64,000 bases of DNA, taken from contig JAJPHM010000013.1 of the NCBI GenBank assembly GCA_021325295.1, forward strand, positions 1 through 64,000, read 5' to 3'. Under the pieces are notes generated by a model that saw only the letters and a program-made list of their open reading frames with translations, made no database searches and had not been told where the DNA came from. This document shows positions 13,989-21,321 of this stretch, piece after piece. The number at the start of each line of letters is the position of its first letter. The first letter of the stretch is position 1. The DNA is from Nitrososphaeraceae archaeon. Its GTDB lineage: Archaea; Thermoproteota; Nitrososphaeria; Nitrososphaerales; Nitrososphaeraceae. The position numbers and the translations under genes are program-made.

Positions 13989-14708
13989 CTAGCTGCTATT
14001 GGTAGCAATCAGCTTCTTCAAGTCAGTGATGAACTGGTCGAACTTCTTGACCTTATCGCTTTCCTCAATCTCTGCTTCTGTCATGACATAGCTTCCGTCT
14101 GTATCAACCTCTACAATTGCCCTGCCTTTCTTTGCAGGATTCCTAGCCGTCAGAGTTCCATCTTCATCAGGTGTAATGAAAAAGACTTTGATATTTCTCG
14201 TCACTTCGTCACTTTGTAGCTTCATCTTCCAATAGCCTGTCTGCGCTATCCTTTCCCGTAAGGTAACCTTACTTGATAGTACAGCAAGAATGTGAAAGTT
14301 TGTGGGATTGTATATTATCAAATCTACATCTGGCAGATGAGAGCCAAATTCTCCATAATGAATCAAAAGATTCCTTCTTACCTGACTGAGCTCCTTTGAT
14401 AGATTCTCAGACCTTGTCCTTTCGAGCTGGCTTCCTCCAATGACTTTCAATCCCAAGGTTGAAACTTCGTCATTTATCATGTACATTAGCAGCTTCTCGA
14501 GGTTCTTTCCTTTGAATGCACGCCAAGATTGCTCGTGGTCTGGCACTCTTCCCTCTGCTTTAGCTCGCTGGGCTGTGGGACTGTTTTCAAAGCCTTCTTT
14601 ATGGATTGCTTTGGCTGTTCTTAGAAGCTCAGTTACATGCCTGTATGCATCGACTCCGTATTTTTCCTTCATCTTGTCATAGAGCTTGACAAGCTCGTCA
14701 AATTGCAT
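13989..14708 (-). CDS. Type II restriction endonuclease, BsaWI-like
   Basis: 239 residues. Seen: DVDLIIYN followed by FHILAVLSSKVTLRERIAQ, a PD-(D/E)xK-type active site (Asp of PDVDL, then the S-S-K pattern) in the form seen in BsaWI-family enzymes, which also share the SSK-x-S/T-x-R-x-R block. The family cuts at WCCGGW; the specificity here is not known. The gene follows the methyltransferase by 3 bases on the same strand, so the pair is one operon, methyltransferase first. Confidence 0.75.
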   Translation of the reverse strand: MQFDELVKLYDKMKEKYGVDAYRHVTELLRTAKAIHKEGFENSPTAQRAKAEGRVPDHEQSWRAFKGKNLEKLLMYMINDEVSTLGLKVIGGSQLERTRSENLSKELSQVRRNLLIHYGEFGSHLPDVDLIIYNPTNFHILAVLSSKVTLRERIAQTGYWKMKLQSDEVTRNIKVFFITPDEDGTLTARNPAKKGRAIVEVDTDGSYVMTEAEIEESDKVKKFDQFITDLKKLIATNSS

Positions 14709-14711
14709 TTT

Positions 14712-15959
14712 TCAACCCTTTTCCAAATCCACCTTTGGAACATGCTTCATGTTCTCTTCTTGTTTGCCCTTAGTGTCCGCTTTACCTCTTTGATAGTATG
14801 CCCACTTGACACCTTTCTCAGCTTTCTTTGGTTTGCTCGGTACAGCTTTCCTCATAATGAAGAGGTACTTGAAACCACGCAGATAGAAATTAAACCTAAG
14901 AGCCCTGTTGTACCAGATACCTGTATTGGATGCCTGGCTTCTGCGAACCACGCATACAATATCGACAGTATCAAAGTATTTTGAAAGACGTTTGTATACT
15001 TCAAAGCCTACTGGCGTGAACTTTTTCTTTACCCATTGGTCTCCAATAAGCCAACCCAAGACTTTGCCGTCCTTTAACACACGGTGGCATTCCCTTATTA
15101 CTTTCTCAAGCTCGTCATAGAACTCTTCAGACTCGGCAGAGATATGCCCAATATTGGCAGGATGTTCATTGTACCTGATGTTGTCGCCATATGGTGAATC
15201 TATAAAGATCATATCAACGCTGCTGTCATCTAGCGGGATTTTCCTAGCGTCATTTTGGATAATTTCAGGTCTTGTTGGAACTATATCATAAGCTATGCAT
15301 CTTCTTCCTTCTTCTTTGCACACATCGTAGGTAGTGCCAGAGCCTGCCATAGGGTCTACCACAAGGTCGCCAGGCTCTGTATATCTGAACAGAAGGTTGT
15401 AGAGAATGAAGGCAGGCGTTACTCCTGCGTATTTGTTATTGCCTTTAGGCGTTGAGCCGTAGCTTTGCTTCGGATAGTCCCAAAGCGTAGTGGCCTCAAG
15501 CTTGGGTTTTTCATCTTCTTTTCTCTCTTCCTTTTGAAAGCCCGTATCGGGTATTAGGCTGGACCATGACTCATCAGGATTTGCGAAAAGTCTCAGAAGT
15601 ATGCTTTTCTTGGTTGGACCAGCTGGATGGTGCCAGTCAATACCTAATTTTGTTAGAATCTTCTTTGCATTAGGAATTGTCTTCTTCTCACCTTCCAGCT
15701 CAACAGGAACCTGATAAGGGTAATTGCCATTCCACGCTTCCGGGATTATGTTCTTGGCACCATCTGCTTTCGCCCTAAAAACTCCATGCAATACATCCGA
15801 ATCCATATTGTAGAGGAACAGAACGTCCCCCTTCTTTGTCTTCAAAGCATTTTCAGCATAGATCTTGCCAGTGCCAAGCAGCATTCGGTCAAAACATTCT
15901 TTCTCCGATTTGTCAGTACATGCGAAAATGACAGCCTTAGTATCAGACAACTCTTGCAT
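14712..15959 (-). CDS. DNA methyltransferase with N-terminal DCD-like domain
   Basis: 415 residues. Residues 8-95 match the pattern of the DCD (development and cell death) PUA-like fold: VIFACTDKSEKECFDRML, KGDVLFLYNMDSDVLHGVF, then AKNIIPEAWNGNYPYQVPVE. Residues about 195-360 are an amino-methyltransferase: motif I DPMAGSGTT (about 200), motif IV DSPYGD (about 252, DSPY rather than DPPY), so an N6-adenine or N4-cytosine enzyme. The C-terminus is Lys-rich. It precedes the BsaWI-like nuclease gene and should protect its site. DCD domains are mainly known from plants, so the fusion is unusual. Confidence 0.82.
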   Translation of the reverse strand: MQELSDTKAVIFACTDKSEKECFDRMLLGTGKIYAENALKTKKGDVLFLYNMDSDVLHGVFRAKADGAKNIIPEAWNGNYPYQVPVELEGEKKTIPNAKKILTKLGIDWHHPAGPTKKSILLRLFANPDESWSSLIPDTGFQKEERKEDEKPKLEATTLWDYPKQSYGSTPKGNNKYAGVTPAFILYNLLFRYTEPGDLVVDPMAGSGTTYDVCKEEGRRCIAYDIVPTRPEIIQNDARKIPLDDSSVDMIFIDSPYGDNIRYNEHPANIGHISAESEEFYDELEKVIRECHRVLKDGKVLGWLIGDQWVKKKFTPVGFEVYKRLSKYFDTVDIVCVVRRSQASNTGIWYNRALRFNFYLRGFKYLFIMRKAVPSKPKKAEKGVKWAYYQRGKADTKGKQEENMKHVPKVDLEKG

Positions 15960-16119: not shown

Positions 16120-17094
16120 ATGGATTATAGCATTCCAGATGTTTCTGCGGAAATTATTATGGAGATAGCAAAGATCCTTGCTAATGCACCATCAGCGATG
16201 AAGAGAGACGAGATTAATTCATGTTTTTCCAAGCCTTTATCGCAACCTTATTTGACTGGTGCTATATCTGTATGTATTCAGCTTGGACTCGCAGTAGAGA
16301 GGCAGGGACTACTTGTTGGAGCTGACACATTTAGAGACGATGTTAAACGCGCAAGCAGAGATCAGCTTCATGTTATTTTCCAAGCATGCTTGAAAGACTA
16401 CTCACCATTTCTTCTTTACGTAGATTTTGCAAGCAAAGGGTATGCTTCAGCGGAGGCAGCAGCTAGAACAAAAGGTATACTTCGCATAAAGGGCACTGCG
16501 GAAATAGTAGAGCAGTCATTACGTAGGTGGGGGCTTTATGCTCAATTAATAGAATATGACAAGAAATCAGACAAAGTTAACGTGAAAGTAAATGTGGAAA
16601 GATTAACAACTGAATATATTATGAAATTACTGGGTGCTTTCGAGGCAGACCTTAAGGTAAAGGTTTTTCTAATTGATATGCTAGGAGCAGAAGCATTTGC
16701 ATTCATGGATCAGAAGGATATAAAAATAGATGAACTTTCTTCTGCACTTCTTGCCTACGAAGCAGATGCAGATACCGCTGCGGCCAAATGTACTAAAGCT
16801 CTAGAACTGTTCCTTTGGCGCCTTGGTGAAGAAGTAGGTAGTGATGTTGCCAAGACTCATGGGCTAATCGAACTTAGCGATCGTTTGAAAGGTGATAAAA
16901 TCATTTTGAACAATCACAATCATATCTTACATGGAATGGGCGGAATAAGAAATATGACTCATCATGCTCCGGACAAGGAAACAGGGCAACCTTGGGTCAT
17001 CACAAAACAAGCCGGCCTGCTTACATCTTTATTCGTTCCAACTCTGATTAGAAGTTTATACCTTTACTACCGAGAAAAGAAGCAGGAATTTTGA
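16120..17094 (+). CDS. HEPN/Abi-C-like protein, probable ribonuclease of a defence system
   Basis: 324 residues. The C-terminal third (TKALELFLWRLGEEVG..., ending in GMGGIRNMTHHAPD) has the HEPN active-site pattern RN-x3-H (R277, N278, H282) and resembles the Abi_C family of abortive-infection proteins. Residues 1-110 hold a winged-helix-like part (SAMKRDEINSCFS...). A central helical region links them. It lies between the restriction-modification operon and the DUF5343 gene on the opposite strand from the former. RNA cleavage is inferred from the motif only. Confidence 0.65.
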   Translation: MDYSIPDVSAEIIMEIAKILANAPSAMKRDEINSCFSKPLSQPYLTGAISVCIQLGLAVERQGLLVGADTFRDDVKRASRDQLHVIFQACLKDYSPFLLYVDFASKGYASAEAAARTKGILRIKGTAEIVEQSLRRWGLYAQLIEYDKKSDKVNVKVNVERLTTEYIMKLLGAFEADLKVKVFLIDMLGAEAFAFMDQKDIKIDELSSALLAYEADADTAAAKCTKALELFLWRLGEEVGSDVAKTHGLIELSDRLKGDKIILNNHNHILHGMGGIRNMTHHAPDKETGQPWVITKQAGLLTSLFVPTLIRSLYLYYREKKQEF

Positions 17095-17136
17095 ATATGA
17101 TAAAGAAACTATATAATCCTCTGCTTCCATATTACG

Positions 17137-17940
17137 ATGTTGCCAGACCAAGATCAAACTCAAGAGCTAGGTTTAGAATCATTCTCTGCCCAAGATGCCA
17201 TCAAAGAAGTAGGCAAGTCTTCTATTCAAAGTCCGCCCTATGCTTGCAGCCCAGGATGGATCATAAAATTCTTTGAACTCGCTAAGACTATGAAACTTAC
17301 AATCATTGATAGAGCCTTTGTCGGCAATTATATAGTAGCTTCTAAAAATGAATCCAAAGTAACAAATGCATTGAAGTTTCTTCAGCTAATTGATAAAGAT
17401 GGAAATATTACAGCTAAAGTGAGCCTTCTCAAAGCTGAGGGAGAAGTATTCAAACAAAACCTTCGCAAAATTGTCGAGGAAGCATACTCTGACCTAATAA
17501 CCAATCTGCCTATTGAAACTGTTAAAGCCGACGTTATGAACGCGTATTTTACGGATCCAAAAAGGTGTAATTACACGCTTCCACAAGCGAAGGCTGCAAC
17601 TAATTTCTTTGTTTGGATAGCGAAAGAGGCCGGAATGACACTTTCACCTGATCTTTCGAATATTAAAAGTGATCCAAAACCGCGTGATCCAAGTATGGGG
17701 GAGACTAGGTCAAAGAAGGAACATGACAGCAAGGTAGAGAATCTCATCGAACCTGCACCTAAACAAGGCTCACAGACCATTGTTAACAAAGTGGTTTTAC
17801 CATCTCTAGAGAAACCTAGTCTTTCTAATATACAAGCCACTATTACAATGTCACTTGACAAAGATACTCCTATTGACGTCTGGCGAATGGTCTTAAGGCT
17901 ATTGGGTTTGAGTGATCAACAATCTGAACATGTCAACTAA
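17137..17940 (+). CDS. DUF5343-like protein
   Basis: 267 residues. Residues about 33-130 (YACSPGWIIKFFELAKTM, ESKVTNALKFLQLIDKDGNIT, VEEAYSDLI) match the winged-helix-like DUF5343 pattern, in which a two-helix part is followed by LGFL-dG-xT and a Tyr-x-Asp-Leu motif. The C-terminal 100 residues are polar and low in structure with a short ending. It follows the HEPN gene by 43 bases on the same strand, probably co-transcribed. DUF5343 proteins occur in many accessory regions; function unknown. Confidence 0.6.
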   Translation: MLPDQDQTQELGLESFSAQDAIKEVGKSSIQSPPYACSPGWIIKFFELAKTMKLTIIDRAFVGNYIVASKNESKVTNALKFLQLIDKDGNITAKVSLLKAEGEVFKQNLRKIVEEAYSDLITNLPIETVKADVMNAYFTDPKRCNYTLPQAKAATNFFVWIAKEAGMTLSPDLSNIKSDPKPRDPSMGETRSKKEHDSKVENLIEPAPKQGSQTIVNKVVLPSLEKPSLSNIQATITMSLDKDTPIDVWRMVLRLLGLSDQQSEHVN

Positions 17941-18023: not shown

Positions 18024-18731
18024 ATGCGAGTTGCCCTCTACGCCAGAGTAAGCAAAGACGAAAACTACCAAGATAACAGATACCAGGAGCTTGAGAACCA
18101 ATTAGTGCCATTACGCGAATGGGCGAAGACAATGAATTGGGAAATAATAGATGAGTATTCAGACAAGGCAAGTGGCGCTGATTCTGGAAGACAGAACTTC
18201 AGGCGTTTGATGTCTGATGCAATGCAACGCAGATTCTCTTGCATCTTAGTCTGGAAGATGGATCGCTTCTCCAGGGAGAATATGTCCAACGTTGTCGCTT
18301 ATGTTCAGAGTCTAAAGTCAAGGGGCGTAGGAATAAAGAGCATGACTGAAAGCTGGCTTGACACTACTACAGAAAATCCGATTTCAGGTGTTGTGCTAGC
18401 GATCATGAGCTGGGCTGCTGCTGAAGAGCGCAGAAAGATAAGTGAAAGGACAAAGGCAGGCATTAACAGGCTCAAGGCAATTGGGCAGTGGACTGGTGGC
18501 AGACCGATAAACCTAAACAATGAACAATCACTCCAAGCTAAGGAACTCTTCACTCAAGGCAAAGACATTGATGAAATTGCCAAAATTCTGCAAGTTGATA
18601 GAAAAGTAGTAAAGCACTGGGCTAAAGAATCACGGAAAAGGCGGGATGCTATAATCAACCCTATAAAGCAGCATAGCAATAAAGCGGGCGTTTTTTCCAA
18701 GCTGATTCTAAAAGTATCTTGGAAAAACTGA
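18024..18731 (+). CDS. Serine recombinase (resolvase/invertase family)
   Basis: 235 residues. Seen: the catalytic block ALYARVSKDE (nucleophile S10), then SGADSGRQNFRRLM, VWKMDRFSREN (the conserved Arg-rich turn), the E-helix SWAAAEERRKISERTKAG, and a C-terminal HTH (ELFTQGKDIDEIAKILQVDRKVVKHW). All parts of a small serine recombinase are intact. The basic extension (KRRDAIINPIKQHSNK) is short. It may move the island or resolve dimers; no recognition site could be assigned. It is the only recombinase seen in the window. Confidence 0.92.
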   Translation: MRVALYARVSKDENYQDNRYQELENQLVPLREWAKTMNWEIIDEYSDKASGADSGRQNFRRLMSDAMQRRFSCILVWKMDRFSRENMSNVVAYVQSLKSRGVGIKSMTESWLDTTTENPISGVVLAIMSWAAAEERRKISERTKAGINRLKAIGQWTGGRPINLNNEQSLQAKELFTQGKDIDEIAKILQVDRKVVKHWAKESRKRRDAIINPIKQHSNKAGVFSKLILKVSWKN

Positions 18732-20994: not shown

Positions 20995-21321
20995 CTACTC
21001 CCAAACGATCTTCAAACCACTTACCTTGCTTATCTCTTCATAATCCCTATCAGCAGTAACAAGTGTTTTTCCGGTGTTCAAGCAAGTAGCTGCAATAATC
21101 AAATCTGCTCCAGGCTTCATACGCCCTCTCGCAGCAAGCTTTTTCTGAATGTCACGAGCAAGTTCCAAGTCAGCTAACTCTGGATACAATACCTTTCCAT
21201 GAAAGTGCCTATACTCAGCTAGCATAGGGTATTCTATGATTGAAATCATCGACACGTCTTCGTCTACTGGCTTGCCTTCGTTAACCCTATCTGCTAATAG
21301 GGAGGTGTCAATTATGTTCAT
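20995..21321 (-). CDS. PIN-domain toxin (VapC-like)
   Basis: 108 residues. Seen: IIDTSLLAD (first Asp), ISIIEYPML (Glu), GADLIIAATCLNTGKTLVTADRDY (third and fourth acidic positions): the full PIN active-site set. The family cleaves RNA, often tRNA. It follows the antitoxin-like gene at 21342-21506 by 20 bases, antitoxin first. Unlike the pair at 2.4 kb, this toxin reads intact. Confidence 0.85.
   Translation of the reverse strand: MNIIDTSLLADRVNEGKPVDEDVSMISIIEYPMLAEYRHFHGKVLYPELADLELARDIQKKLAARGRMKPGADLIIAATCLNTGKTLVTADRDYEEISKVSGLKIVWE

Follow-up and report, generated by a model that had tools for sequence, protein, structure and literature searches.

In the 64,000-nucleotide stretch of DNA analysed here (the window), a nuclease gene and a methyltransferase gene appear to form a two-gene type II restriction-modification system of a Nitrososphaera-related archaeon, in which the DCD domain fused to the methyltransferase most likely serves methylation itself, through a predicted coupling of reading and writing. 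The full reading, which combines a restriction-modification pair, a DCD domain that aids methylation by reading its product, and survival of the fused enzyme as a solitary gene, comes close to an even chance in our judgement. The features concerned are as follows.

13989..14708, minus strand: gene for a BsaWI/CCGG-family type II restriction endonuclease (239 aa; PF18643)
14712..15959, minus strand: DCD-methyltransferase gene (415 aa, ATG start)
15630..15935, minus strand: DCD domain, PUA/EVE-like fold (residues about 9-110; PF10539, AlphaFold, Foldseek)
14787..15518, minus strand: amino-methyltransferase domain (residues 148-391; PF01555, family profile, conserved motifs)

The preliminary description had assigned the N-terminus of the 415-residue reading frame to the DCD family and the remainder to a type II DNA methyltransferase, and both assignments are confirmed by Pfam. 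Dev_Cell_Death (PF10539) matches residues 9-96 (67.3 bits against a cut-off of 27.8, E 1.4e-18) and N6_N4_Mtase (PF01555) matches from residue 144 on (83.4 bits, E 3e-23), both well above chance. The DCD landmarks named in that description are present and conserved across 27 aligned DCD domains, stand-alone proteins included, in which E21, C22, G44, F48, L49, N51, G59, F61, A63, Q83 and V84 are invariant. PF10539 was matched only once in the host genome, all 2.69 Mb of which were searched. The two domains are joined by a linker and helices (residues about 111-147), and the C-terminal tail (residues 386-415) is of low confidence. Scanning GTDB genomes gave 43 relatives, to which whole-genome searches added further ones; about 30 relatives carry the DCD domain (identity 53-69%) and are found in Nitrososphaerota, Bathyarchaeota, Nitrospirota, Elusimicrobiota and Stahlbacteria. 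The recurrence of the same fusion at about 30 loci shows that it is real and kept in relatives, and rules out an artefact or chimera as its origin. Stand-alone DCD proteins of 109-203 aa (L060, L062, L067 and L068) are also encoded within the same phylum, and two of these (L060 and L067) have a conserved charged C-terminal region in common.

A structural model obtained with AlphaFold from 38 family sequences has a pLDDT of about 95 over most of residues 10-110 (model scores: pLDDT 89.8, pTM 0.82). Its best Foldseek matches in the PDB are EVE structures (2p5d, 1wmm, 2hd9 and VcaM4I, 6yex) and many YTH domains, with E values of 1e-4 to 1e-3 and TM-scores mostly of 0.5-0.7. The resemblance to EVE raised in the preliminary description is thus upheld, and structure prediction places the domain in no other fold. 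The barrel and the order of strands and helices are as in EVE domains (VcaM4I, MJECL36, PH1033) and YTH domains, although sequence identity to these is 10-18%; the one match of the DCD profile among PDB sequences, the EVE protein MJECL36, is weak and non-significant (E 0.15). The model is that of a PUA-like, modified-base-reader fold, and the main text of Bell et al. 2020 (PMC7641849) likewise describes DCD as PUA-like on the basis of profile comparison. Modified-base reading by the DCD domain is plausible, as it fits the modelled fold, and modified-base binding is a prediction for other DCD proteins as well in that text (PMC7641849). The EVE relative VcaM4I flips 5mC/5hmC into a pocket formed by P24, W82 and Y130 (PMC7897488). 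From a rough sequence correspondence T15, E19, F28 and W76 are candidate pocket residues of the DCD domain; F28 is nearly universal among relatives, but is Leu in the window protein. Those EVE and YTH domains that have been characterized in restriction guide nucleases, whereas the DCD domain described here is fused to a methyltransferase.

In the methyltransferase domain (METHYLTRANSFERASE), motif I (DPMAGSGTT) stands ahead of motif IV (DSPYGDN), both of which are conserved (DPPY in L016), and the match to PF01555 consists of two stretches in permuted (swapped) order. The nearest folds are Trm11-type amino-methyltransferases, and N4-cytosine methyltransferases are among the sequence matches. 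Residues 148-391 form a permuted N4/N6 amino-methyltransferase. The domain comprises about 244 aa, in which neither a separate target-recognition domain nor space for one can be made out, and DCD-less homologues are whole proteins of as few as 222-227 aa. The product is likely N4-methylcytosine, because the CCGG core predicted for the partner nuclease contains no adenine.

The nuclease gene starts 3 bp after the methyltransferase stop codon, and its product matches RE_BsaWI (PF18643) with 115.9 bits against a Pfam cut-off of 26.2 (E 1e-33). Alignment with full-length BsaWI (4zsf) is weak (phmmer E 0.18). In BsaWI, which cleaves W/CCGGW, D145, K165 and R169-D170-R171 together with E92 are the active-site and CCGG-recognition residues (PMC4652773), and they are spaced like D127, K147, R151-E152-R153 and E71 of the nuclease described here; the distance from D127 to K147 is 20 residues and the R-E-R triplet occupies K+4 to K+6, as in BsaWI. 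Residues P126, D127, K147, R151, E152, R153 and Q156 are present in all 25 aligned nucleases, and E71 in 24 of them. In contrast, the second acid of BsaWI, D175, which is required in that enzyme, is replaced by T, A or S in 25/25 nucleases of the family described here, beside the invariant Q156, and the catalytic detail must therefore differ from that of BsaWI. Homology and the R-E-R triplet suggest that the nuclease should cut unmethylated CCGG-core sites. Target-site avoidance was considered as evidence for this specificity and gave no signal: neither WCCGGW nor CCGG was depleted over about 460 kb of host sequence (observed/expected 1.00 and 1.23, respectively), and both the host and two genomes with orphan copies contained more CCGG than expected. 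The CCGG-core site is thus a prediction that base composition does not support.

A number of methyltransferases that lack the DCD domain adjoin nucleases of the same family and show 61-74% identity over the methyltransferase segment that aligns best. Such DCD-less pairs occur in Chloroflexota, Micrarchaeota, Nanoarchaeota, Methanophagales, Pacearchaeota and Patescibacteria. Since the same methyltransferase-nuclease pair exists without it, the DCD domain is neither a specificity module nor needed by the pair, and sequence-specific recognition was rejected as its main role. At the DCD-less loci profile searches revealed no DCD protein that could act in trans, and no upstream remnant of the domain was found. 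The sole EVE protein seen at these loci, in a Chloroflexi locus (L041:5384-6379; PF01878, E 2.6e-8), has a weak YhcG-type PDDEXK match, and the gene beside it encodes a DCD-less methyltransferase that is truncated. Patescibacteria have an additional methyltransferase of larger size (about 423 aa) upstream of the nuclease, and loci L030-L039 (Patescibacteria and Ignavibacteria) comprise three genes, which encode the large methyltransferase, the CCGG-family nuclease and a minimal methyltransferase (about 225 aa) devoid of DCD. In the Nitrososphaera genomes G326 and G327 the nuclease is paired only with a larger PF01555 methyltransferase of 423-430 aa (L095:3920-5886 and L096:5136-7117), and a solitary DCD-methyltransferase is encoded elsewhere, apart from the nuclease pair. 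Plasmid and phage collections yielded only distant methyltransferase matches, and the fusion was not found in them. Two IMG/VR contigs (L215:149-937 and L216:4941-5666) encode DCD-less relatives of the methyltransferase with no nuclease nearby, which possibly protect viral DNA against this restriction family; these viral orphans indicate that the DCD domain is not necessary for every solitary methyltransferase.

The genes surrounding the pair in the window were considered as further parts of the system and dismissed, as no homologues were found near any other DCD-methyltransferase; the unit is thus two genes. The surroundings include two genes on the opposite strand at 16120-17940 (one of 324 aa, the other of 267 aa and weakly matching DUF5343), likewise not conserved beside other DCD-methyltransferases, a serine recombinase/resolvase at 18024-18731 (PF00239, E 6e-33) that may mark a mobile segment, and a short reading frame at 20995-21321 that, judged by eye, encodes a putative VapC-type PIN-domain toxin.

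The history of the fusion was explored on a methyltransferase tree of 48 rows, from which two truncated or frame-broken rows had been left out. The DCD label required two changes on this tree, and a topology that held all DCD rows on one side of a branch was not rejected (AU p 0.51), so that a single origin of the fusion is compatible with the tree and one fusion event would suffice. An intact adjacent nuclease was missing in 18 of the 28 scorable DCD copies, through about seven independent changes, three of which (L003, L013 and L019) consist of disrupted reading frames in metagenome assemblies, possibly through errors of assembly; it was missing in none of the 17 DCD-less cellular copies. 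With tree lengths of 11.3 for the DCD part and 7.3 for the DCD-less part, the chance that all seven losses would fall in the DCD part if they were evenly spread is about 0.03, which is no more than suggestive. In several lineages, probably, the nuclease decayed and the DCD-methyltransferase survived on its own, as an enzyme that probably serves the host.

In the genus Nitrososphaera (g130), 11 of 18 genomes carry the fusion. Whole-genome searches of the three closed genomes of the genus that contain it revealed no such nuclease anywhere. Several of the copies (L097-L100 and L104) lie in a common chromosomal neighbourhood, beside a gene judged by eye to be PhoU-like, and this shared setting speaks for vertical inheritance. 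Among pairs with unsaturated dS, dN/dS is 0.08-0.16 for the orphan DCD part, similar to the 0.08-0.13 of the methyltransferase part. The orphan DCD domain is under strong purifying selection and must have some role there without the nuclease.

The existence of pairs without the DCD domain, together with its retention where there is no nuclease, argues that it most likely serves methylation, as an add-on that neither specifies the site nor is required by the nuclease. In the mechanism that we propose, the nuclease would cut unmethylated CCGG-core sites, while the methyltransferase domain would methylate an exocyclic amino group at the same site, most likely N4 of cytosine. The DCD domain would most likely bind an already marked base, probably one methylated by the enzyme itself, at a half-methylated site; such binding would steer or activate the fused methyltransferase. 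Coupling of reading and writing at half-methylated sites is only one of the ways in which a fold of this type can be used. It could be argued instead that the DCD domain acts as a generic clamp on nucleic acid, which would increase affinity or processivity and read no modification. The small size of the methyltransferase domain, which lacks a separate recognition domain, and the faster divergence of the DCD part relative to the methyltransferase part are consistent with a clamp, from which a solitary enzyme would profit too. The closest folds, however, are dedicated modified-base readers, and the core of invariant residues extends even to stand-alone DCD proteins; we consider the clamp unlikely, while regarding it as a serious contender.

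A different proposal, put forward for this architecture from genomic context in the main text of Bell et al. 2020 (PMC7641849), is that the DCD domain recognizes DNA that is otherwise modified and that a second, supplementary methylation then allows this DNA to escape the neighbouring nuclease. The DCD domain is elsewhere linked to modification-dependent restriction, and its fold resembles that of 5mC/5hmC and 6mA readers, in keeping with this proposal. Supplementary methylation, however, leans on a neighbouring nuclease and is thus weakened by the solitary copies; it leaves unexplained the purifying selection on the DCD domain where no such nuclease is encoded, and the same nuclease is also paired with a DCD-less enzyme. 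We regard it as improbable, a little more so than the clamp. The preliminary description had also suggested that the DCD domain controls the pair. Control of the nuclease or of the balance between the two proteins, through protein contact, transcriptional control or a toxicity switch, would accord with the 3-bp intergenic gap, which suggests one co-translated unit. This suggestion lost ground, however, since the pair exists without the DCD domain and the domain persists nuclease-free in most of one genus, and we now consider such control very improbable.

The fusion itself does not come as a surprise. In the main text of their article Bell, Wolf and Koonin (2020) report that DCD-Rossmann methyltransferase fusions are frequent in prokaryotes and are usually followed by a PD-(D/E)XK nuclease, mostly in archaea and hyperthermophilic bacteria (PMC7641849). 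The pair in the window, a DCD-methyltransferase gene followed by a PD-(D/E)XK nuclease gene, is a module of this type, with the same fusion and the same nuclease superfamily. That main text, however, does not name the nuclease family, and makes no mention of DCD-less sister systems, of a single origin or of solitary copies in Nitrososphaera. New here are the identification of the nuclease as a CCGG-family enzyme, the DCD-less sister pairs, the compatibility of the fusion with a single origin and its persistence in the absence of the nuclease.

Persistent orphan m4C methyltransferases have been described in Nitrososphaerota as groups HG10-HG21, of which HG21 is a persistent solitary m4C group in Nitrososphaera whose motif is unknown (PMC10609329). 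Like the DCD-methyltransferase, HG21 is a solitary, apparently vertically kept type II enzyme of this genus, and the two are candidates for being the same family. The description suits at least two further families of the genus equally well, however, and the fusion was not matched in two of its well-covered genomes (G338 and G339), whereas membership of HG21 calls for a solitary copy in every complete Nitrososphaera genome. A bolder version of the product-reading mechanism is that soil ammonia-oxidizing archaea possess a domesticated reader-writer within a single polypeptide, in which the DCD domain would read the m4C made by its own enzyme, which would then complete the other strand, possibly at the HG21 motif; this we view as a distinctly long shot.

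In animals UHRF1 and DNMT1 couple a PUA/SRA-type reader to a DNA methyltransferase in maintenance methylation. The comparison extends only to the way the systems would work, the idea of a reader joined to a methyltransferase being common to both; UHRF1 and DNMT1, in contrast, are separate polypeptides with another type of methyltransferase, and the preference for half-methylated sites is, for the DCD enzyme, a proposal. Related methyltransferases with or without the DCD domain, and with or without the nuclease, provide a natural test of the role of the DCD domain, on which most knowledge comes from plant stress proteins; comparing them distinguishes a function in methylation from one in restriction. 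Were the reader-writer to prove true, archaea would possess a self-maintaining cytosine mark analogous to that upheld by UHRF1-DNMT1; if the DCD domain indeed reads the product mark, these organisms would hold an inherited, self-maintaining methylation system within one protein.
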